Part shown: piece after piece, positions 8,849-50,641 of the stretch
How the letters are laid out: every line of letters begins with the position of its first letter
Numbering within the stretch: the first letter of the stretch is position 1
Assembly: GCF_028583425.1 (NCBI RefSeq)
Contig: NC_072791.1
Span: 45,019,368 to 45,083,367, forward strand
From: Eublepharis macularius
Taxonomy: Eukaryota; Chordata; Lepidosauria; Squamata; Eublepharidae
Reading direction: 5' to 3'
Length of the DNA stretch: 64,000 bases
Notes under the pieces: generated by a model
Seen by the model: only the letters and a program-made list of their open reading frames with translations
Databases searched by the model: none
Told to the model about the DNA's origin: nothing
Translations under genes and position numbers: made by a program

Positions 8849-9080
8849 TATCTGCAGGATATATTGTCGAAGGCTTTCACGGCTGGAGAACAATGGTTGT
8901 TGTGGATTTTTCGGGCTGTATTGCCGTGGTCTTGGCATTGTAGTTCCTGACGTTTTGCCAGCACCTTCGGTGCTACACCTCTGAAGATGCCAGCCACAGC
9001 TGCTGGCGAAACGTCAGGAACTACAATGCCAAGACCACGGCAATACAGCCCGGAAAACCCACAACAACTATCTGCAGGAT
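8849..9080 (+). mobile_element. Penelope-like element copy A, palindromic, with 12-bp target-site duplication
   Basis: TATCTGCAGGAT flanks the insert at 8849-8860 and 9069-9080, so the insert is 8861-9068. Inverted arms of about 68-69 nt lie at 8895-8963 and 9001-9068. On the + strand 8980-9025 reads CCTCTGAAGA, a 6-bp stem GCCAGC/GCTGGC, then GAAACGTCAGG. This matches the minimal hammerhead ribozyme of Penelope-like retroelements (CUGANGA - stem II - GAAA - short stem III - GUC). Family assignment is inferred from that motif and the palindromic layout. Confidence 0.7.
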
Positions 9081-10409
9081 GTTTTATCCAGTGAGACTGA
9101 AGAATCAGTGTGAGAAGAGCTATCACTTGTGATACAATCTAGTTTTCATTTCTCAATTAGGCATGCTAACAACTTTGACATGAACACAATCATCAGGTAA
9201 ACTTACTTGCTCAAATTTCCTTAACTACATGCAAGGTGAACACCTGATCAGATCCCCACAAAATTCCCTGCTGAAGTTCATCTTGAGCACACCACCATGC
9301 TGAGCAGCTTTAGCCTGGAAACTGGCCACTTGTACTATAGGGCCAGGTCACTGCAGCTTATAGCTGCTTTTACGCAAACTAAGAACTAAATCATTATATT
9401 TATGAGAGAAGAGGAACTATCTTCAGCAGTCATAGCTGGGTCATAAACCGACCAGCTTATACTGCGAAGCACAGAATTGTTTGCACTCATTTCCTCTTTC
9501 CATCTGCATAGTTGGATATATCCTTTTAGATGGGATAGATTGCATTGCCTGCATTTTGCACCTGTGCAGTTAGCAGCATCTACTGGAAAATCAATTCAAG
9601 AACTGATCACAAGATTAGCTAGGTTCATGGACAGACACCGAAGGAACACAGAGACATCAACATATTAATTCTCAACTTGAACCTCAGATTGATTTTTTTC
9701 TTATTGCTATGTGCCTTTTAAATGTCTGAGGTGCCGGTGGGGAGCTGCTTGTGCAAGAAAGCTTTGCTCTGTTCAAATCAGATGTCTCCAAACAGTTTGC
9801 CCAACAATTAGCTCCCTTCTCACAGAGGGTAAACAAGTAGTGAGCCAAACCAGGGAATGATCAAACATAACTAGTCACAACCAATTGTTGAAGAATTAAC
9901 TTGAAGCAACAGTCCTACTGTAACTCACAAAAATTTAAAAAATTAGGTTCTTTTAGTATTACTATTTTTATGATTTTGTAGGGAAGGGAACTGAATCAAA
10001 ATACTCTCTCCATATTAAAATCATACTGGAAGGCAACGTTCTATCAGGGCTTCCAGCAACGGCTAGTCAGATCCCCCCATGAAGCACAGGCAGGTGTGAT
10101 ATAATAAGCTATGCCCTTTTGCTTGCTTCCAACATCCACACCAATACAAGGAAGTGTGCCAACACAGCTATTATTATTATTGCAGCACAAGTAAATTATA
10201 CAATCAATATAAACACAACAGTTTCGATTCCATTCAATTCAATGTGGCTGCAAACTTGTTCCAATAGACTGAGAGAGTCAAGTCCCATATGTTAACGGAA
10301 CTTCTTTATCACAGGCTGCAAACGGTGCCAGTTGAAGTTAATCGGTGGCGTCCAAGATTTATGAGCTCCAAGGTGGCGACGAGCTATACCGGTCTATTCC
10401 TTTTTGTTT

Positions 10410-10640
10410 TGGTTGTGCTTCCAACATCCAGCAGTTAGAAGCACATGGGCTCGAACCATCCAAGTCCCATTTAGCTGGTCACAGCTAATATCCATCAATG
10501 GGTTTATCTTGTATGTTTAATCCTATTTAAAAAACATCTAAGCTAGTGCCCATCACCACATATGGTGGCAACAATTTCTGTAAGTTAATTATGTATTGAA
10601 GAAATACTTCCTTTTGCCTGGCCTGAAACATAACTTCAGA
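10410..10640 (-). mobile_element. CR1 LINE 3' fragment
   Basis: The - strand reads AAGGAAGTATTTCTTCAATA, then AATTAACTTACAGAAATTGT and GTGGTGATGGGCACTAGCTT. This corresponds to the CR1 ORF2 C-terminus (KKYFL...) and the start of the 3' UTR. The frame is broken. Confidence 0.6.
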
Positions 10641-11980
10641 AGGAATAAAGATAGAATCTTGGCCTCATTTGTTTAGACTTCACAAATGACTACAGCACCA
10701 GAAGGGGATAGAAATATTGTATGATTAGGGACAAAAAATAAAATAAAATCCCTGTTCATGATTGACTCCAACCTATGCTGACAGACAGGTGTGAAACTGA
10801 AAAGGCAATGCCATTCCAGCCACCCTAAGGCTTAATAGAGCAGCAAACACATAAATTGTTTGGAAAACACACTAGGCTCAGAGACATCCACCATACTCAC
10901 AAGCATTTAACAGCTACATCTGCTTTTAGCCTGCAGCTGAAACCAGGCTTGGAAAGACATCAACTCTGAGCTTATTTTGAAACAGAAATGGCGCACCTCA
11001 TGCCTCTCGTAAACAGCTACAAAACTGCACCTTCAAGGCTTTAGAATTTGTCATCACTGATTTTTACAAAGGAAAAGACTTGCCTCTGCATCTCTTGAGA
11101 GGCATAACTGTCATCACAGACTAGCTAATACAACTTCCTGTGATAGTAAACATACACCGCAGAAACCTACAAAACCCATACCCTACTGATAAACCTGCAA
11201 AGTAAAAGAAACATTTATGAAGGATGACGTCTTCAGGTTGGTCTTGGAACTGCCATAAAACAGTAGCTTTTATATAAAAATTAGGAAAACAAAAGTTAAG
11301 AATGTGGCCAGGGGATGATTAAGAGCTTGCATAACAAGCGCTGTTCTGCAGGATGCAAGGTTCTGTTGATTGGCAACCCCCACCCCGGAGAACTTTTCTC
11401 TGCTTCCAAGTCCATTTGTGCATCCAGGAAATTAGTGCACCGATTGCCACTCACCACTTTCAGTTCTAGCCAATTGTTCCCTGAATCCCTACCTGTATCC
11501 CTAATATGCATGTTTCTTTCCATGTTTTGATCTCCATAACCTCTCCACATACCAACTAGTACCCATTTCTTAATATTACAATTTATTTTTGATCCTGCTG
11601 TTCCACCCTCTCCAAATACCAGCAGTGCAACCCACATGGTTATCTGAGGTCTGCAGAGCTACTAAAGAGCCACAGCACAAATGAGCATCTGACATGAGAT
11701 TCTGTAGATCACTAAGGAAGCATTTGATCCAGTAATATGGAATGCTGTAGAAAATAGGGCCTATGACTAAAAGTGTAGGACACTGTGCTTCATTCACAGA
11801 GCTAGCCATCTTCTGTTAGATGCCACTGCAATAAAGACTATACATCTGTTTCTCAGTTCATGCTGAGAGATTTATCATGGAAAATAAAGTGAGAAAAGGA
11901 AAGAAATGAGCACAGCTGCTGCTGTCAAAATGGCACCGGACATACATTGCTATGGTTTCCTCATCTGTAGTCTTCACAGA
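10640..11980. other. Gene-free stretch
   Basis: Apparently unique, moderately AT-rich sequence. I found no exon of IFT43 or of another gene here on either strand. Confidence 0.4.
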
Positions 11981-11983
11981 GAT

Positions 11984-12720
11984 GACTTTATTTATTTAAA
12001 ACATTTGTATGCCGCCTTTGTACCCAAGCAGGGCCCCAAGGTGGTGAATGTTTAAAAAATTTTAAACATTTAAAAAATTAAATATAAAACAACTTAAAAT
12101 AATGTAAAAATAACTCAATAAACACACACACAAACACACAACTAGAAGAACAGGAAAGAGGGCCTATAACAGTTATTGGGGGTATACCAAACAAAACAAC
12201 AAAGTCTTCACCCACTGGTGGAAGAAAGCGACAGAGGGGACAGATGCCCAAGGAGGAAGTATGAAAGTTCTGGCACTGTGATTGAAAATGACTGTGCAGC
12301 CTCAAATGGCATTGTCACCTGAAGCAGGGCCTCCAAAGATGACCAGAGCGAATTGGAAGGTTCATATGGGAGAAGGCGGTCCTTCAGATATGATGGCCCC
12401 AAGCCATACAAGGCTTTAAAGGTCAATATCAGCATCTTGAATTGGGCCTGGAAGCAAATCAAGAGCCAATGTTGATGGAACAACATTGGAGAGATATGGT
12501 TCCTACAACTCACACCAGACAGTATTCTGGCCATATCATTCTGTACCAGTTGTAGCTTCTGAACAACTGTCAAGCGCAGCCACATGTAGACCACATTACA
12601 GTAATCTAATCTAGATGTACCACAGTGGCAAGATCTTTCCTTTCCAGAAAGGGCAGAAGCTGGCGAAAGACATCCCAGGCCACTGTTGACACCTATTTAC
12701 CCAACAATATCCCCAGGTCC
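11984..12720 (-). mobile_element. L2-type LINE 3' end
   Basis: The - strand frame at 12594-12208 reads KLQLVQNDMARILSGVSCR, FQAQFKMLILTFKALYGLGP and SYLKDRLLPYEPS, the L2 ORF2 C-terminus. It is followed by 3' UTR and ends in the tail opposite TTTATTTATTTAAAACATTTG at 11984. A related 3' UTR recurs at 21335-21560. The element is a fragment with no 5' half. Confidence 0.75.
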
Positions 12721-12924
12721 AGCAGCATTTGATGCATTTACACATGATGTGTATGGATTTCTTATAAAAAGGCTTCTCCCTTCCCTCTGAGCTCCATAAA
12801 TTTGCCACTCCCATTCAGGTGACTGAAGTGGCTCAAAAAGAGAACACAAAGCAGACAAAGATGAAACATCCTTAAACATAAAAGGTGAGCCATATTTCAG
12901 ATGACTCACTTTTTATGTGGTACA

Positions 12925-13692
12925 GGCGCAGTCTGCACATGGGTGGGAAGGACGGCCCTCTTCCCAGCCCTTCGCTGCCACGATAGGCCAGCGCAGGGAA
13001 TGGTCCACCCGCCTGCATGGCCCTCTGCTCAGGCAAGGAGGCAGTAGGATGGGCGACCCCGCCTCCCAGCCCTTCCTCGCTATGATCGGGATGCTGGGGA
13101 GAGGGCAATGTCTGGCCCCTGCCGCCCTGCCCTTCTCCCCCTGCCCCACATCAAGGTACTGTGGAGGGGTCAATGCCCAGCCCTGCCGCCCTGTCCTCCT
13201 CCAGATCAGGGCGCTAGGAAGGGGGCAATGCCTGGCCCGGCTGCCCTGCCTTCATCCAGCTCGGGGCACTAGGGATGGAGCAATGCCTGGCTCTGCTGCC
13301 CTGCCCTCCTCCCCCCATCCCAGATCAGGGCGCTGGGGAGGGGGCCCTATCCATGCTGCCCTATCCTCCTCCCCTCACCCCAGATTGGGTCACTTGGGAG
13401 GGGTCAATGCCCAGCCCCGCCGCCCTGCCCTCCTCCAGATCAGGGCACTAGGGAGGGGGCAGTGTCCTGCCCTGCTGCCCTGCCCTCCTTCCTCCACCCC
13501 ATATCGGGGTGCTGGGGAGGAGGCAATGCCTGGCCCAACCACCCTGCCCTCCTCCAGATCGGGGTGCTAGGGAGGGGGCAATGTCCAGTCCTGCCGCCCT
13601 AACCTCCTACCCCCACTCCAGATCGGGGCACTGGGGAGGAGGCAATGCCCATCCCCACCACCCTGCCCTCCTCCCCCTGCCCCAGATCTTGC
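12925..13692. repeat. GC-rich minisatellite, about 11 units of 55-66 bp
   Basis: The unit is close to GATCGGGGCGCTGGGGAGGG, then GGCAATGCCCAGCCCCGCCG and CCCTGCCCTCCTCC, with or without a CCCCACCCCA spacer. Units alternate between about 55 and 66 bp and are diverged from one another. The + strand stays open for 217 codons at 12917-13570 only because most units keep the same frame. No protein family is recognisable. Confidence 0.85.
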
Positions 13693-13974
13693 AGAAATAA
13701 ACAAATTCCATAGTAAAGGTTCTGGTACTGGGATGAAGTGCCAAATCTAAATTGCCTGACTTGACAGAATCTCTCTGGTACAAGGAGAATTCCGAAGTAG
13801 ACAAAGGTTATGGCTAATGTACATCTATACACTACTACTCCTATCTCCAATAGTAAAGCAGCTGGCCCCTATTTTAGTCACAAGCAAAATGATGCCAACA
13901 ACAAACAAGGTAAGGAGGGCTGCTAGATATTCTGGGGACTGAATATACTCCAGAACACAATGTTGGCATCAGTT

Positions 13975-14050
13975 TATTTTTTTATTTATTTTTTTATATT
14001 TCAATATTTTTATATACCACCCATACTCAGGGGCTCTGGGTGGTGTGATA
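13975..14050 (-). mobile_element. LINE 3' tail
   Basis: The + strand reads TTTATTTTTTTATTTATTTT followed by TATATACCACCCATACTCAG. It is the complement of the usual A-rich 3' end of a reptile LINE. Confidence 0.45.
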
Positions 14051-14299
14051 GTTGAGTGATAGTTAAAGGAAAGAGAAAGGGGGGCAGAGGAAAGGAAATC
14101 TGCTTTTTCAAGCCCCTGAGAACTTATAAGATCTGTGGATGGGGAAGCATTTCCAAATTGTTCTCCTCTTCCACAATTCCTTGCAGTCCTCCCACCAACA
14201 CTTGTAACCAACAAACTGCTAACCAGCAATTTTTTTTCCTCACAAGAGGCTCCTGCTGGACTGTATGGCTTTAAAAGCTCTGTTTTCATACTGGAGGCT

Positions 14300-15930
14300 G
14301 CCAAATAAAACTACCAAGGAACAGGAAAAAAACCCGCGGAAACAGTAATGTCTTTAAAGTGCACTGTGCCTAATTATTACAACTGTTTGATATCACTATT
14401 TAATGTCAGTAACTTCACAATCCTAGAGTCTAAAGTGCACAGTGCAAAAAATGAACTCATACAGTCACAAATCACAATTACAATATGTTCACATCCGAGA
14501 ATCTAAGCAGTTAATTACAATGTATTCACATCTGAGAATCCACATAATATTAAAGACACATCAAAGAGTCTTTGAAGTTCAATTTTCTCTATTATTCAAT
14601 AGAGATTTGCAGTCCAACAAAATTCTTATAGCAGTGTCCTCATATGATTTCTTTTCTAGGTGGACTCCTGCAACCAGAAGCAAGATGGTGCACTTTAAAG
14701 ACTACTGTTTTTGTGGGTTTTTTCCCTGTTCCTTGTTAGCATCCCCGTGGGGTCCCTTTGTTTAGTTAAATAAAACTACCAAACAGAAGACCAATACCGG
14801 TTTATTAAGACTCTCATTCTACTTGCAAATTATTATGCCTGTGCTTTGCAAGACGGGCTTGTCATTCCCAAAGTTTTTCAGCTCTTGCTATTGGCTGTCA
14901 TTATACTACACATAGCTATAGAAGGATAAAAAATTGTCATGATCAATGTCTGTAGCAGGAGCAGTAAATGCAAGAATAACACTTAAGGAATATTCCACCA
15001 ACTGTCTTCAGAAAAGTCAATATTCTAACCATCTACTCAAGAACAGTCTACCTTTTCTGTAGTGTCTTCATCCTAGAATGGAATAAGCAAAGAGAAAAAA
15101 GCAGAAAAGAAAAAATGTCATGAATGTGCAGCCACCAGAAGAGACAGGATCCTGTGCTTGGATGTGTTCATGCAAGGAACCCCAAGAGCCTCTCTCTTCT
15201 TGCCCCACACTCAGGGCTTCCCTATGCTCATTTGTTTACTTTTGACCAATGGTATAGGAAGATGATTTGGGCCTATTTACACATCATCTGCAACATCTAC
15301 ACTGCCAACACTGAGACTTCATACCATGTTGCTTTCAATAGACATTGTCAGAAATTCCCCCTTCATCCTGACATGGCATTTGTATCTTGGATGAGATACT
15401 GTGGTCTTGTGCACTCCTTTACCTTTTCCCTTTTTACCACTGACTTTCCCTGTGGCTTCAAAAATAATAAATGGACTCACATAAGCCTGTTTTCTACATT
15501 GTTCTTTATAATTTCTTGTTTTTCTTGTGCAAGTGTCCATTTTTATATCATGATATAAAAATGCATAGTATGGTCACAGTGTGGTGGTGTGGCAGCTAAT
15601 GATAGGGGAGGGGAATAAAAGAGGAGAGAGGTATCAGAGGAAATGCTCCTCTGGACTTATGGCTGTTCACTCCTACATTCTGGTTCTTCCTTTTATTTGT
15701 TTAAGCTCCAGCTACCCACAATCAGTAAAAAGAGGTAACACAAGCTTTGATTAACTGGTTGGTAGCGTGTACGCTCTGTGCTCCCTAAAGGGCTTTCATT
15801 TGGGACCCTACTAGAATAATGCACTTAATTGTGAGGTAATATAAACCCCCTTTCACAGTTATTTTGACAGGACAGACAAGATGCAGAGAGTGATGAACAA
15901 GAAAGATTTGTTTACAGAAAACAAGGTACA
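14300..15930. other. Gene-free stretch
   Basis: AT-rich sequence without recognisable repeats. A 144-codon open frame at 15124-15558 shows no homology I recognise and no splice context for IFT43. Confidence 0.4.
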
Positions 15931-15939
15931 GATTTTGGG

Positions 15940-16190
15940 TTTGGTGTAGTGGTTAAGAGCGCAGGACTCTAATCTGGAGAACCGGATTTGATTCCTCACT
16001 CCTCCACTTGAAGCCAACTGGGTGACCTTGGATCAGTCACAGCTTCTAGCTCTCTAAGCCCCACCCATCTCACAGGGTGTTTTGTTGTGGGGATAATAGT
16101 AACATACTTTGCAAACCACTCTGAGTGGGTGTTAAGTCATCCTGAAGGGCAGTATATAAATCGAATGTTGTTGTTGTTATTATTGGAATA
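15940..16190 (+). mobile_element. MIR/CORE-type tRNA-derived SINE
   Basis: The tRNA-like head has GTGTAGTGGTTAAGAGCGCA (A-box region) and a B-box-like GGATTTGATTCCTC. A CORE-like middle follows (TGACCTTGGATCAGTCACAG, TCTCACAGGGTG), and then a tail GGCAGTATATAAATCGAATG and TTGTTGTT. A close relative lies at 56820-57066. Confidence 0.75.
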
Positions 16191-16874
16191 CTTCAGTATA
16201 GAATGAACAACTGGCTCTTAACTTCACTCCCTGGAGAGTATAAGTTTTCTTCATGGGAGTTAACTCTTAGATTTGCATGTGGCCAAAATTACAAAGATTG
16301 GTCCATAGCCCTGGAGGATAGGTTCTTTGGAAGTGATTGCCACAGTGGAAATTCCCAATTTCCCCCAACAAAGGGCAATGTAGGACATGACAGATAAGCA
16401 AAACTCTTTCCTCCACAACCCCGTACAAAAAGGTGACCACATTCACAGACTATAGGGAATGTGCTGCTACAGTGTTCTGCTACAGTGTTCTCAGATTCTT
16501 TACTTAGTGTAATGCTTTGGCCAAGTCACATTAACAGCATTTTTTGTTTGTTACAAACAGGACTGAAACTGATGGGGGCACAGTCAGGATGCACACTGAG
16601 AAACAAACCCAAGGAGAAACTGGTGGAAAGCCAGTTTCAAATTATGTTAAGAGAATGCAGCGGCTATGATGATAGGAAGTTAGAGGCTGTAGCCCATAGG
16701 TTATTTGGTGACTACTATAACAAGTACAAAAGAAATTACCCACATATTTGAGGTCATCAATAACCTATTGATTACATCATACAGCTGAACAAGGACAGTT
16801 GGCCTATATAATAAATGGACTGAGTGAGTGAAAAGGAAAAGCAGCTTTAGTCCAAAAAATGAAAAATCAGGAAT

Positions 16875-17150
16875 GGAAGGGAAAGATGGTTGTTGTGGAT
16901 TTTCCGGGCTGTATAGCCGTGGTCTTGGCATTGTAGTTCCTGACGTTTCGCCAGCAGCTGTGACTGGCATCTTCAGAGGTGTAGCACCAAAAGACAGAGA
17001 TCTCTCAGTGTCACAGTGTGGAGAAGATGTTGGCAGGTAATTTATATCTACTCAGGAAGGTAGGTTTGGGCTGAGTCATCCTGTAAAAGTTTCCCAGGGT
17101 GTGGAATGCTAATGGAGGGAGGCTTCGCTGTATTCTGAGGAAGGGAAAGA
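16875..17150 (-). mobile_element. Penelope-like element copy B with 12-bp target-site duplication
   Basis: GGAAGGGAAAGA occurs at 16875-16886 and 17139-17150, bounding a 252-bp insert. The insert begins TGGTTGTTGTGGATTTTCCG on the + strand. Read on the - strand it carries CCTCTGAAGA, a stem GCCAGT/GCTGGC (with one wobble pair) and GAAACGTCAGG, so the hammerhead core is intact. It also extends farther upstream than the other copies (to CTGAGTCATCCTGTAAAAG). It sits in IFT43 intron 2 if that intron extends leftward. Confidence 0.7.
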
Positions 17151-17568
17151 GTTCTAAGACTATGGCAAGTTTGTTACGTCTTGCCAAAAGAAAAGAGTTT
17201 CATGACACATCTGCACCCAACCTGAAATCCAGGGAAGCAGTAAACTTCCCCTCAACAGGATAATAAAATGATGAGCTTACCAAGTGGTTACATGTATCCT
17301 ATGATAAATAATCACCTGCAAAAAGTTCATTTGTGTTTTACAAGCAATGTAAGAGCCAAGATTCTTCAACTTTCCAAGGACCCCTTGGTAGTAAATCTAT
17401 ACATATCTATCAGAGAAGGTAAACATAGCAGCCTGGTTCTAGAACACATGTTCTTGTATGAGAAGAGAAACAGAAGAAGCCAGCTAAGGTTTAGAGTAGA
17501 CTTTTATCTTGGATGAAAATTCAACGTATCTCAATTTTTCAGCTGAAAATTGAGCTAGTTGCACTCAC

Positions 17569-17649
17569 CTCTCCAGCTGAAGAGCAGGTAGGGCTAAGAT
17601 GGTTTTCCTCCAAGTGAGAATCCTGCTGAGCTCGTCTGCCCATCTTTAC
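17569..17649 (-). CDS. IFT43: IFT43 coding exon 2
   Basis: The exon has 27 codons in phase 0. The acceptor is TTCCATTCTACGCAG and the donor GTGAGT. The residues VKMGRRAQQDSHLEENHLSP are clearly the conserved KMGRRAQQ block of IFT43. The exon begins GTAAAG, so the acceptor and a donor-like sequence overlap (AG|GTAAAG). Confidence 0.93.
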
Positions 17650-19960
17650 CTGCGTAGAATGGAAAGGAAAACTTCAGAAGCATACACAGTGCCAGTGGTG
17701 GAGACAGTATGGCAGGGATGATTAAACTTTGACCAAGCAGTCCACATGAGTTTCTGTAACAATTTGTGTATGGCTCCCAAAACCATGTTACTAGAAGGAA
17801 TGAGAGCCTTATCTTATTCTCTGGAATTAGGAGGCAGTAGCAACAACTGACTGGGAAAGGTGGAGTAAAGATCTGGTTCTGGTGGGGAGGAAAAAAGAGA
17901 TTAGAAGAAAGAAACACATTATTAGCAGGGAAAGTAGCTACAAGGGAGTAACAGAAAAAGCAGCAGTGGGTGATAGTTTTTTTATTTATTCATTTTTGAT
18001 TTTTATATTATATTATATTATATTATATTATATTATATTATATTATATTATATTATATTATATTATATTATATTATATTATATTATATTATATTATATTA
18101 TATTATATTATATTATATTATATTATATTATATTATATTATAGTGAAAGACAGGTGGGGAGGCTTAGATGGAGAAGCATTTGGTAGCAGAGCTGCTGGGA
18201 AGAAAGGAAGATCTATGGAGACTCTTGTGACTAGCCACCTCAGGAATATTTTATTGACTCATGTGTAAATATTTTATAAAATAAATATAACAAGGGAATG
18301 AATATTTACTTGGAGTAGAAAAATAATCCAGGAAGGATCTCATAATCTTTATTATCAGGCTTGCATAATTTATAATACACCAGCCAAACACAACCACCAG
18401 CTTTTGTGATCCCAAGCTGGCAACAAAACCAGGAAAGACGTCCAGTTCATGGAGGGAGGGGAGAAATATTCATCTTGGTGGGCTGTAGGCTGTGCAGATA
18501 ATATGTAATACAAACAGAATAAAAGGCTGGTTAAAGAAGCCAATACAAATACTGCATAGAGAACTTCAGCACAAAATTAATTCACAGCATTGGGCTTTGC
18601 TGAAGAAAAAGGCGATTTTGCTTGTCTCATTTCCCCTTTGCTGTTATTATGACATTATGACACATTAAGCATTTATAACTATACTGGACAGCAGCATCCA
18701 TCTCCTCCCTAATGAGTTTGAGACACCTTGCACCTGAGTCCTACAGCAAGCCTTTGCAAGGTGACGCTTAGCAAAGAAGCCCTGTAGTGTTCAACTACAA
18801 GATGGAAAGCTGAGGCACTTCCTGAAGCAAGCAGGACACCAGCTCCAATGTTGCTAGGGTTGCCAGCTCCCAGCGGGGCAATTCCTAGAGTTTTGGGGGG
18901 TAGAAGTTGGAGATGGTGGGGTTTGGAGAGGGGAGGCACCTCAGCTGGGTATAATGCCACAGAGTCCACCTTCCAAGGCAGCCATTTTCTCCAGGGGAAC
19001 TGATTTTTGTTGCCTGCAGATCAGTTGTAATTCTGGGAGATCTCCAGCCTCTACCTGGAGGCTGGCAACCATAAATTTGCAGCTGCACATGGCACAGGAA
19101 CACAGGTATTGAGGGCTCCCAATATTTCATTAGAGAACAGTACATATATTTCAGTAATTTCTATTATTGCCAATCTCCAGGTGGGGTCTGGAGATCTCCT
19201 GGAATTACAGCTGATCTCCAGATGACAGAGATCAGCTCCCCTGGAGAAAATGGCTGCTTTGGAAGATGGCCTCTGGTATTTCGCACCACTGAGGCCCCTC
19301 CCCAGGCTGCACCCCCAAATATTCAGGCATTTCCCAAAGCAGTGGTGGCAACCGTAGCCATGTCCATTAACCTTCTGCTCAGGGTGAGCCCTGGAAGCCT
19401 TAAGCAGAATGAAAAAGGCTGAGCCTGGCTGCCCTTCAGAGGGCTCTTTAACCGTTCAGAGTTACTTCAAAATCTTACTCCGGTATAATGCCATAGTGCA
19501 TCCTCCAAAGCAGCCATTTCTCCAGGCGAACTGATCTCTGTGGCCTGAAGATCAGTCAAAATTCCAGGAGATCTCTAGTCACCGCCTGGAGGTTGGCATG
19601 GCACGCATTCCACAAGTTAGGCCCTTTCCAAGCCGGGGGCTTTCTGCAGCAAAAATGCCTTTCTCGGAGTTAGCCTTCGCCCAATCAGAAGTAACTGTTT
19701 TTAGGGAACTTGCCGGACGGAGGCCTAGAAAGGGCGCATTTGCCACGATTCCCCTCGGATATGGGGAAAAAGCAGCGGGGTGGACGGGAATGATTGCGTG
19801 TGAGTGGCTGGCGGTTTAGCGGGAACAGGCCCCTCGTCGCTATGGCAACGCGGCCTTCACGGGCAACTGAGCCGCCCAGGCCGCTTCGCCGGAACGGCAT
19901 CGCTCTTACCGCGCCTCCCCCCTTCCGCGGCTCATCGCCCAGCTGTGGATCATCGTCCAT
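17569..19960 (-). CDS. IFT43: IFT43, intraflagellar transport protein 43 (5' part: coding exons 1 and 2)
   Basis: The gene runs leftward and is joined from 19960-19910 and 17649-17569, giving 44 residues. IFT43 is a small subunit of the IFT-A complex, which drives retrograde transport and ciliary entry of membrane proteins. Exon 1 reads MDDDPQLGDEPRKGGGA and aligns without gaps to the first 17 residues of mouse IFT43 as I remember it. Exon 2 begins VKMGRRAQQDS and contains ENHL and SSAGE, matching KMGRRAQQES...ENHL in mammals. The gene is divergent from TGFB3, as in mammals. The conserved core (SEEIEDFRLRPQSLNGSDYG onward) was not found in 1-17568, so the rest is probably beyond the window. 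Confidence 0.9.
17996..18141. repeat. (TATTA)n pentanucleotide microsatellite
   Basis: About 28 near-perfect units of TATTA lie in IFT43 intron 1. Because TATTA lacks stop codons in one + frame, a spurious YYIIL repeat protein can be read through it. Confidence 0.97.
18857..19070 (+). mobile_element. GGTTGCCAG-type short DNA element, copy 1
   Basis: The start is GGGTTGCCAGCTCC and the end GGAGGCTGGCAACC, an imperfect terminal inverted repeat of about 14 bp. The interior has CCATTTTCTCCAGGGGAACT followed by GAT and GGGAGATCTCCAG. No open frame is present. A non-autonomous DNA transposon is inferred. Confidence 0.65.
19167..19353 (-). mobile_element. GGTTGCCAG-type short DNA element, copy 2
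   Basis: This is an inverted copy of the same family, with GGAGATCTCCTGGAATTACA, CCCCTGGAGAAAATGGCTGC and a GTGGTGGCAACC end. It is diverged from copy 1. Confidence 0.6.
19481..19599 (+). mobile_element. GGTTGCCAG-type short DNA element, copy 3 (partial)
   Basis: Only the right half is present, from the GGTATAATGCCATAG block to GCCTGGAGGTTGGCA. It abuts the IFT43 CpG island. Confidence 0.6.
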
Positions 19961-20120
19961 CCCGTAGGCTTAGCCGCTTGCAGGCCGGGCGGGTGCTCGT
20001 GAAGACCGCGGCTGACTTCCGGAGGGAAAGCCCGCGCGTCCTTAGCAACCCTTAAAGGGAGCGCAGCCTTGGCTAGACGAATGCATTGAGGGACCATTCC
20101 TGGGAAAGCAGCAGGGGGCG
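19590..20120 (-). promoter_or_regulatory. IFT43: IFT43 CpG-island promoter with X-box and ETS motifs
   Basis: About 0.5 kb is rich in CpG between flanking repeats. GTCGCT-AT-GGCAAC at 19836-19849 is one mismatch from the RFX X-box GTNRCC-N2-RGYAAC. GCGTCC-TT-AGCAAC at 20036-20049 is a second X-box-like site with a weaker left half. ACTTCCGG at 20015-20022 is an ETS site. RFX factors are the established activators of ciliary genes, which fits IFT43. The transcription start is not visible but should lie between about 19965 and 20060 on the - strand. Confidence 0.75.
19910..19960 (-). CDS. IFT43: IFT43 coding exon 1
   Basis: Seventeen codons run from an ATG with G at -3 and G at +4 (good Kozak context) to a phase-0 donor GTAAGA. 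It lies in a CpG island. The acidic MDDD...LGDE opening fits the start of IFT43, and the length to the splice site equals that in mouse. Short exons are easy to mis-call, but exon 2 confirms the gene. Confidence 0.87.
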
Positions 20121-20140
20121 TAAGATGCATTGTACACATA

Positions 20141-20329
20141 GGGTTGCCAGCTCCAAGTTGGGGAATTCCTAGGGGTGGAGATTGGGGAGGGAAGGGACCT
20201 CAGCAGGGTACAATGCCTCTCTCCCAAGCAGCCACTTTCTCTACAAAAACTGATCCATATAGCCAGGAGATCAATTGTAATTCCGGGAGATCTCAAGTAA
20301 CCATCTAGATTCTGGAGGTTGGCAGCCCT
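20141..20329 (+). mobile_element. GGTTGCCAG-type short DNA element, copy 4
   Basis: The start is GGGTTGCCAGCTCC and the end TCTGGAGGTTGGCAGCCCT, with both termini present. It lies immediately upstream of the IFT43 CpG island. Confidence 0.65.
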
Positions 20330-20346
20330 TGGTCTCCAGTAGAACA

Positions 20347-20461
20347 GCAAGATTCAAGTCCAGTAGCACCTTAAAAGACCAACAGGATTTTCTTCTACCC
20401 TAAAAGCTTATGCCCTGAAATTCTTGTTGATCTTTAAGGTGCTAATGGACTCAAGTCTTGC
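20347..20461. mobile_element. Foldback repeat (hairpin element)
   Basis: GCAAGATTCAAGTCCAGTAG is inverted as CTAATGGACTCAAGTCTTGC. The interior carries ACCTTAAAAGACCAACAGG and AAGCTTATGCCCTGAAA. The same family recurs at 27140-27245, 32968-33131, 36927-37010, 48466-48634 and 56695-56815. Confidence 0.7.
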
Positions 20462-20626
20462 TTTATCAGAATAAACAACATGAAACAAAGAAAGCAGCAC
20501 AAAAACTACAGGAGTTCTTCATGGCAGATTGCCACAGTCCAATTTATCCAAGATCTAGGCCTAGATAAACCTAGGCAGGAGCTGCTTTAGATTCTGGTAT
20601 CCTGGAACTATACTAAAACATGAAAT

Positions 20627-21029
20627 AGAGTTTTGACTGTCGAAGGCGTTCACGGCCGGAGAACGATGGTTGTTGTGGGTTTTCCGGGCTGTATTGCCGT
20701 GGTCTTGGCATTGTAGTTCCTGACGTTTTGCCAGCAGCTGTGGCTGGCATCTTCAAAGGTGTAGCACCAAAAGACAGAGATCTCTCAGTGTCACAGTGTG
20801 GAAAAGATGTTGGCAGGTCATTTGTATCTACCCCAACCCCACCCCTCCTGAGTAGATACAAATGACCTGCCAACATCTTTTCCACACTGTGACACTGAGA
20901 GATCTCTGTCTTTTGGTGCTACACCTCTGAAGATGCCAGCCACAGCTGCTGGCGAAACGTCAGGAACTACAATGCCAAGACCACGGCAATACAGCCCGGA
21001 AAACCCACAACAACCAGAGTTTTGACTGT
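20627..21029 (+). mobile_element. Penelope-like element copy C, near-perfect 164-bp inverted arms, 14-bp target-site duplication
   Basis: AGAGTTTTGACTGT flanks the insert at 20627-20640 and 21016-21029. The arms are 20668-20831 and 20852-21015 around a 20-nt spacer and differ at only two positions, both inside the hammerhead-like block of the left arm. The right arm keeps the intact motif (CTCTGAAGA ... GCGAAACGTCAGG) at about 20923-20972 on the + strand. A 27-nt extension (20641-20667) lies outside the left arm. The high arm identity suggests a young insertion. Confidence 0.75.
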
Positions 21030-23756: not shown

Positions 23757-24300
23757 GCCGCGGTCCACCTGGAGCTGCGGGTCGGACTGCGGAGACGAGG
23801 AAGGACGCCGGGCGAGCCCCGGGCGAGCAGCGGGAGGCGCCTGTGTCGCTCCGCAATGAAGCCGAGGCGCAGCTGCTGAGGGGCGAGTCCGCCGGGGCGC
23901 CGCTGCCGAGGGGCACGTCCAGCCCGCGGGAGGCATGAGCGGGGCGCGCCGGCGGCCACCAGCGCGCTCCTGGGCCCGCCTGACACGTGCGCTCCCGGTT
24001 GCGCCCCCGCGACGCCTGCCTGGGGAGCTGCCCGGTGCAGAGTGAGTGCCGAGCGCGGCCGCGGCCGGCCGACTGGCAGGTTCTCCTCGCCCCTGCGAAG
24101 CTCGCCGCCGCCGCTTCGCCTCCGGACTCATGGAGAGGGACCCCGGCGGGGCGAGGCGCCGCCCCGCTTCCTCCTGTCCCCCGGCGGCCGGCGCCTCATA
24201 AAGTGCTGCCCTCGCTCCCGGCCGATCCCTTCCTTCATGCCCCTTCTCGCCCAGCGCCTCTCGGCCAGGATCCCTCTGCGCGCCCGCCCCGTCCCCGAAG
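23680..24300 (+). other. TGFB3: TGFB3 5' UTR (long, GC-rich, several upstream ORFs)
   Basis: The 5' leader is about 620 nt if transcription starts about 30 bp after the TATA box. Upstream ATGs open short reading frames at 23856-23879 (7 codons), 23935-24045 (36 codons) and 24130-24201 (23 codons). A fourth ATG at 24237 is out of frame and overlaps the main start. Mammalian TGFB3 mRNA is known to be translationally restrained by upstream ORFs, so this is probably conserved in kind. The start of transcription is inferred. Confidence 0.7.
23935..24045 (+). other. Upstream ORF in the TGFB3 leader (36 codons)
   Basis: ATG at 23935 (GGCATGAGC, G at -3) opens an Arg/Pro-rich frame ending in TGA at 24043-24045. 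It is the longest closed upstream ORF in the leader. A regulatory role is inferred from the known behaviour of TGFB3 leaders. Confidence 0.45.

Positions 24301-50641
<26,341 letters not shown>

Follow-up and report, generated by a model that had tools for sequence, protein, structure and literature searches.

Head-to-head Penelope-like insertions in Eublepharis macularius nearly always pair two different outer ends, a possible footprint of reverse transcription from both sides of a target cut

Introduction

How Penelope-like elements (PLEs) insert, and why their copies so frequently lie head to head, is still debated: antisense self-priming was put forward in 2013 (PMC3846280), to be set against biochemical work of 2024 (PMC11167929). 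The latter concerned PAc, a Poseidon-type Penelope of Anolis carolinensis, for which both strands of the target were cut in vitro and extended from two adjacent start sites of reverse transcription (RT). As described there, PAc has a hammerhead motif lying across its start codon with the cut 26 nt after it, a tail bounded by the two start sites, tandem pseudo-long terminal repeats (pLTRs), and an open reading frame (ORF) with reverse transcriptase and GIY-YIG parts; its hammerhead needed protein for cleavage and was dispensable for insertion in vitro, and the later insertion steps were left for validation. The text of PMC11167929 has neither "palindrom" nor "head-to-head", and its single "inverted" refers to a chemical group. 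We examined a 64,000-nt stretch of the Eublepharis macularius genome (assembly GCF_028583425.1, contig NC_072791.1, positions 45,019,368 to 45,083,367, forward strand; the whole stretch is called the window), which contains three insertions, A, B and C, of a PLE family resembling PAc in the described motif position, start sites, tail, tandem and ORF, with a GIY-YIG-type match below the cut-off; the AC-rich start of PAc lies 111–118 nt into its ORF versus ~84 nt here, a comparison by description only. When further copies were collected from the genome, the two arms of a head-to-head insertion nearly always ended at two different sites.

The Penelope elements of the rotifer Adineta vaga, as described in PMC3846280, are alike in their head-to-head inverted pLTRs, target-site duplications, optional tail on one pLTR, and partial tandems. 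They differ in that the tail is termed optional and the palindromes are ascribed to antisense self-priming, whereas here exactly one tail was found in nearly every accepted double-armed copy, and the family has tens of thousands of matches. The word hammerhead is absent from PMC3846280. The minimal type I hammerheads of PLEs (Cervera and De la Pena 2014; Lunse et al. 2017, as given in reviews) share with the present motif the CUGANGA/GAAA core, the GUC triplet, a short stem I, a stem II, and the lack of a closed helix III; the motif here has an extra U between core and stem II. Such hammerheads are called general in PLEs in reviews (PMC6155905, PMC7761336), and the hammerhead part of this family is of an already known kind, ordinary for PLEs.

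Results and Discussion

Sampling of insertions

A 29-mer taken from the 3' half of the motif (and containing its GAAA half) occurred 15,929 + 16,017 = 31,946 times in the 2.24-Gb genome (72 contigs), with none for the reversed-pattern control. Set 1 was built from the first 100 listed places of this 29-mer, which gave 82 loci (L033–L114), together with insertions A–C of the window and 20 longer refetches (L115–L134). Fifteen loci judged by eye to be segmental duplicates were excluded, and longer fetches took the place of 24; there remained 105 arms at 66 loci, one stretch being counted twice, since L085 (first arm) and L133 (AC arm) cover a single place. The insertions at L033/L036, L034/L035, L054/L057/L069 and L053/L056/L060/L062/L065/L070 (contig C1, 1.3–7.1 Mb) recurred with the same flanking sequence, at times in inverted order, which suggests that the first 8 Mb of contig C1 holds segmental duplications or duplicates made in assembly. 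The candidate opposed pairs numbered 33; five of them (L046, L097, L116, L117, L126) had no 8-nt duplication and were dropped, and 28 remained. Set 2 was drawn with a gapped head-to-head pattern independent of the tail, from which 40 of 50 listed places were used (9 were already in set 1 and 1 was left). This pattern found 2,436 head-to-head sites genome-wide, all in a single spacing class and with segmental duplicates included, and the reversed-pattern control gave 0.

One AC-rich end and one tail end in nearly every double-armed insertion

Arms mapped on the reference ended at one of two places, an AC-rich site ~84 nt after the A of the ATG (the AC end; reference positions 1018–1028), or a tail site ~30 nt further out, ~116 nt after that A (positions 1046–1050). 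One end of each kind was present in 69 of the 70 accepted double-armed insertions, the exception being scored AC/AC. Every one of the 28 kept pairs of set 1 was AC + tail, as scored by script for 27 and by eye for L047; with the second insertion of L074 (by eye) and L135 added this became 30/30; in set 2 there were 39 AC + tail pairs out of 40, no tail + tail pair, and one AC + AC pair (L170). The target-site duplications were variable in length: they were exact and 8–15 nt long in 27/28 kept set 1 pairs, that of L113 being only 5 nt, and at least 8 nt long in 39/40 set 2 pairs, where all were different by eye. Arms choosing their ends without regard to each other would give mixed pairs in no more than half of the cases; the 69 of 70 therefore shows that the two choices are coupled, as 69 of 74 would too.

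Genome-wide, 1,858 sites fitted a pattern in which one side had to carry the exact tail, and 27 of the 40 set 2 sites were in that list (by eye). If all 2,436 head-to-head sites were mixed, ~1,640 of them would be expected in the exact-tail list; the 1,858 is only roughly in line with this, the pattern also admitting altered AC motifs. Single-armed insertions with a duplication of at least 8 nt, sought among the 39 unpaired arms, comprised 11 with an AC end and 6 with a tail end; L122, with an 8-nt A/T-rich match, was excluded, and in L108 a 7-nt remnant of an AC arm may be present.

The dropped pair L046 was also AC/tail. Between its arms were 421 nt of unrelated-looking sequence (L046:1009-1429), and no duplication was shared; this is possibly captured sequence or two separate insertions. 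At two other dropped pairs (L116:3478-4203 and L126:163-779) one of the opposed arms came from inside the ORF and, in element coordinates, adjoined or overlapped the other, an arrangement resembling a twin-primed inversion for which no duplication was found.

Insertions in the window

Each of the copies A, B and C is a fragment from the 3' end of the element, lying between exact 12–14-nt target-site duplications. A and C are head-to-head double insertions with two opposed arms within one duplication (the arms of C are 170 nt and 98% complementary); B has one arm only. The limits given in the initial annotation, 8849 and 21029, coincide with the outermost positions of the duplications that flank A and C. 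Nesting of one copy inside another was considered for the opposed arms and rejected, one duplication enclosing both arms in the kept pairs. Positions are those of the window:

8849..8860, no strand: copy A left target-site duplication TATCTGCAGGAT
8861..8966, minus: copy A arm with tail-site end, outer end at left; 5' hammerhead half absent, G12>A in the 3' half (8946-8962)
8966..9068, plus: copy A arm with AC-rich-site end (CCCACAACAAC)
8978..9018, plus: copy A hammerhead motif, intact; predicted cleavage after GTC, before AGG
9069..9080, no strand: copy A right target-site duplication
16875..16886, no strand: copy B left target-site duplication GGAAGGGAAAGA
16887..17138, minus: copy B single-armed insertion, 5'-truncated, AC-type 3' end at left
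16939..16979, minus: copy B hammerhead motif; a C>T replaces a C-G pair of stem II by U-G
17139..17150, no strand: copy B right target-site duplication
20627..20640, no strand: copy C left target-site duplication AGAGTTTTGACTGT
20641..20831, minus: copy C arm with tail-site end, outer end at left
20719..20759, minus: copy C left-arm hammerhead motif, damaged (C3>U, G12>A)
20832..21015, plus: copy C arm with AC-rich-site end, reaching inward ~18 nt beyond the tail arm
20924..20964, plus: copy C right-arm hammerhead motif, intact
21016..21029, no strand: copy C right target-site duplication

Relation between the two arms

The arms of a pair shared rare alleles far more frequently than arms that were re-paired at random. 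In set 1 (27 pairs) 18 minor alleles were shared compared with 3.2 (standard deviation 1.6) after re-pairing, and in set 2 (40 pairs) 41 were shared compared with 6.5 (standard deviation 2.9); in neither case did any of 5000 re-pairings reach the observed number. The long arms of L118 were identical (0/888 differences), as were those of L133 (0/1018), while other copies differed by ~1% at median; another arm tying with L133 is most likely the L085 arm, which is the same place. The main rival to the copying of one RNA is that two different sense RNAs were held in an asymmetric dimeric complex, with one subunit for the AC site and one for the tail site. A dimer is predicted for PAc (PMC11167929), three of the 28 set 1 pairs look copied from two templates or units, and a cis preference for the RNA of one locus could mimic the sharing of alleles; two unrelated templates are, on the other hand, hard to square with rare alleles shared far beyond re-pairing and with the identical long arms of L118 and L133, and we regard this explanation as unlikely, if the strongest of the competitors.

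Inner ends of the two arms fell within 3 nt of each other in 12 of 24 set 1 pairs, compared with 3.17 by re-pairing. Where the arms were unequal, the AC arm could reach further inward by ~1253 nt (L135) or 562 nt (L121), yet it was without the tail of its partner; the same was seen on a smaller scale in L105, L106 and copies A and C of the window, and in L124 and L133 it was the tail arm that was longer. These cases bear upon a snap-back of a single cDNA, in which the second arm would be a DNA copy of the first. Snap-back accounts for nearly identical arms with similar inner ends, but in L121, L135, L105, L106, A and C the AC arm extends further inward and the tail arm has ~30 nt that its partner does not; each arm thus holds sequence absent from the other, and neither can be a copy of the other. 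It was rejected for those six insertions, could still fit L124 and L133, and as a general account is very improbable.

The inner ends of both arms in L136–L175 mostly clustered at reference positions q32–42, 30–40 nt upstream of the motif; in this set, chosen by spacing, the cluster may mark the 5' end of the RNA. No inner ends at the hammerhead cut were seen by eye, a comparison that is biased since the 29-mer of set 1 reaches upstream of the cut. Secondary structure at the two start sites was not notable (z-scores −0.36 and −0.40).

Joining by polymerase theta is expected to leave junction fillers re-copied from nearby sequence. We tested 12 of the 14 centre gaps of at least 7 nt (two long ones, L039 and L046, were left out): eight fillers matched the arms at a level reached in at most 1/1000 shuffles and two at 7 and 24/1000, and those of L047 and L096 did not match at such levels (55 and 154/1000 shuffles). 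The centre fillers are thus often short stretches re-copied from the arms, as expected of end joining or template jumping. Such fillers are not predicted by antisense self-priming, the idea advanced for rotifer Penelope, in which an antisense transcript folds back and primes itself to yield head-to-head arms. That idea was proposed from palindromes at inverted junctions (PMC3846280), and it accounts for variants common to both arms. It does not predict outer ends resembling two sense-RNA start sites of reverse transcription, one end of each kind in 69/70, or arms that differ at common polymorphisms, and for this family we consider it improbable.

Proposed course of insertion

The anatomy of A, B and C is probably best accounted for if reverse transcription began at a staggered target cut, from one side of it or from both. 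The element protein would cut both target strands, and each target 3' end would prime one cDNA; the two starts would fall on the two neighbouring sites, each used once and usually on the same RNA, or alternatively on two RNAs from the same source kept together by a dimeric protein. The cDNAs would run to the 5' end of the RNA or fall off early, and would then be joined head to head with local re-copying, the filling of gaps making the duplication. If one cDNA only were made, a single-armed copy such as B would result. The simplest reading has one RNA with two sites, each used once. The broader proposition, that bidirectional target-primed reverse transcription of one RNA followed by end joining is the normal origin of head-to-head PLE copies, we offer tentatively, at somewhat less than an even chance; if true, it would replace the idea of antisense self-priming. 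The genomic copies look like the footprint that the two-strand, two-start activity of PAc in vitro might leave, with the added rule that the two starts differ.

Several observations weigh against the copying of one RNA from two different sites. Strict asymmetry is not predicted from PAc, whose start sites were alike between strands in vitro (PMC11167929), and the sites here are equated with those of PAc by description rather than by aligned sequence, the AC-rich start lying at 111–118 nt there and ~84 nt here. In three of the 28 set 1 pairs (L124, L134 and window A) the arms differed at common polymorphisms, and in set 2 there were 31 discordant cells among 317 at common sites, compared with 77.4 expected by re-pairing; such differences imply that one RNA is not always the source, or that different tandem units were copied. 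In set 2, which was chosen by length, the inner ends were within 3 nt in 25 of 40 pairs, barely more than by re-pairing, which gave a mean of 16.8 and a maximum of 27. A longer AC arm as a rule, which a trailing enzyme might leave, was found in 10 vs 2 pairs of set 1 and 7 vs 7 of set 2, and this idea was dropped. As to the outer ends, the outer arm of L170 ended ~12 nt into the tail at position 1030, nearer the AC range than the tail range. Four of the dropped pairs (L097, L116, L117, L126) had one arm at neither site, this arm ending inside the ORF in L097, L116 and L126; they may represent older, separate or twin-primed insertions, and if they are single insertions they are exceptions to the end rule which resemble twin-primed inversions.

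In the literature searched, mainly titles and abstract openings with most subscription journals falling outside, we did not find the two-start reading stated for both arms, nor was it stated in the PLE passages of PMC12910113 and PMC5718144. The near-strict rule of one end of each kind, the tests of template sharing, and the cases that exclude snap-back make a two-sided, two-start mechanism testable in the existing in vitro system.

Parent element

A full-size relative in the same genome (L131) has an ORF of 824 codons, preceded by an in-frame stop within the tail region; its 824-aa product matched PF00078 RVT_1 (E 1.1e-12). At the C-terminus there was a match to T5orf172 (E 0.0057; 17.6 bits, below the cut-off of 20), which we take to be a member of the GIY-YIG superfamily, and a GVY...YIG motif was visible by eye in the translation. 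L131 is also a partial tandem, with 1018 nt repeated at 99.7% identity and a 2669-bp period around the ORF (one copy examined). The RT domain, the weak GIY-YIG-type match, the tandem and the PAc-like layout of the motif therefore place the family as a GIY-YIG-type PLE with a minimal type I hammerhead at the pLTR/ORF start. The Penelope-like parent named in the initial annotation is borne out by the RT domain, the tandem structure and the target-site duplications, together with the weak GIY-YIG-type match; the full-length element with both domains that was to be sought was found in L131 as regards the RT domain and the tandem, its GIY-YIG-type match remaining below the cut-off.

Retrozymes, described in PMC7761336 as non-autonomous tandem monomers bounded by hammerheads and having a circular RNA, do not fit the copies seen here. 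The short copies were single-armed or head-to-head (by eye) and without head-to-tail repeats of a few hundred bp, and the sole tandem seen, that of L131, has its 2669-bp period and an ORF. One 28-base pattern of the element had no matches in the viral_contigs collection. An 18-mer was found at 32 places in genome_contigs, all of them titled as bacterial genomes or bins, and these were taken as chance; among the blastn matches listed, the similarity at these places extended at most 25 nt into the element.

The hammerhead motif

The hammerhead motif that the initial annotation described as shared by A, B and C is real, except that a T between CTGAAGA and GCCAGC had been missed; the form with CCTCTGAAGA followed directly by GCCAGC is absent from the copies, and its three matches elsewhere, each with three mismatches, were reached in 4/100 shuffles. 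The 41-nt motif is intact at 8978-9018 (plus strand, A) and 20924-20964 (plus strand, right arm of C). That of B (16939-16979, minus strand) differs by a single C>T where stem II meets the loop, and the left arm of A has G12>A and is without the 5' half. The left arm of C does carry two core changes (C3>U and G12>A) and the right arm is intact, as had been noted. Halves of the motif stood well above chance in the window: CCTCTGAAGATGCCAGC with up to 3 mismatches had 4 matches vs 0.32 expected, and GCTGGCGAAACGTCAGGA had 5 vs 0.02 expected; the bare consensus CTGANGA-N(10-40)-GAAA was weakly specific (15 matches vs 7.2 expected; 0/100 shuffles reached 15). The 105 arms of set 1 (66 loci) hold 97 complete motifs, of which 68 carry all 41 nt, with the CUGANGA and GAAA core, unchanged; 23 haplotypes were read by eye, and the copies are too alike to show compensatory changes in stem II.

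The motif extends across the start of the ORF: core positions C3 and G8 precede the ATG, and cleavage is predicted 26 nt after it; the assignment to the PLE type holds in that this is the position described for PAc (PMC11167929). Stem I of 3 bp and stem II of 6 bp can form. The two-base-pair stem III proposed at first is the loopless sequence ACGT, so that helix III (ACGU in the RNA) could close only between two molecules and not within one. The junction of core and helix II is not direct, one U intervening. The layout of PAc, as far as PMC11167929 describes it, implies a U at this place as well; the intervening U would depart from the textbook hammerhead, though not evidently from the PLE form.

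A covariance-model search, which had been suggested as a check, gave no Rfam hammerhead family at gathering level in the window or at E<=10 in the copy A and B stretches. This, together with a motif too uniform for covariation, its overlap with the first codons, and a hammerhead fold that is not the minimum-energy one for the 59-nt RNA (−11.9 kcal/mol for the hammerhead pairs alone vs −18.4 for the best fold, 6.5 kcal/mol lower), would suit a chance resemblance preserved by coding constraint at the ORF start, with no ribozyme. We think this improbable: the core, cleavage triplet and start-codon position fit the motif described for PAc, whose cleavage in vitro occurs with protein and is lost when C3 or G8 is changed (PMC11167929), and minimal hammerheads are reported as general in PLEs in the reviews cited above. 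In tandem elements the predicted hammerhead may process RNA, and it is likely a ribozyme in tandem transcripts. The head-to-head arms of A and C would instead be expected to fold onto each other and not as tandem hammerheads, and in A and C the motif is most likely an idle, passive remnant. The best fold of 91 nt of the left arm of C, with its damaged core, contained the stem I and stem II pairs. The palindrome of copy A at 8933-9031 matched a microRNA precursor family with E 0.0001, below the family cut-off; such sub-threshold matches arise because copy A forms a hairpin, and palindromic insertions of this kind could be mistaken for microRNA genes.

Other features of the window

Two plus-strand frames, 24202-24663 and 34511-34978, matched the TGF-beta propeptide (E 1.6e-13, and E 1.4e-4 with 22.1 bits vs a cut-off of 25.8); both are probably exons from a gene of the TGF-beta family, upstream of which the insertions lie. 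A GC-rich minisatellite with a period of ~119 bp was present at 13057-13688, and a perfect (TTATA)x28 microsatellite (100% matches) at 18003-18142. A tRNA-Gly-like sequence at 31365-31434 overlapped a stretch that recurs at 45673-45842 with 71% identity, and this repeat is perhaps a tRNA-derived short interspersed element (SINE).

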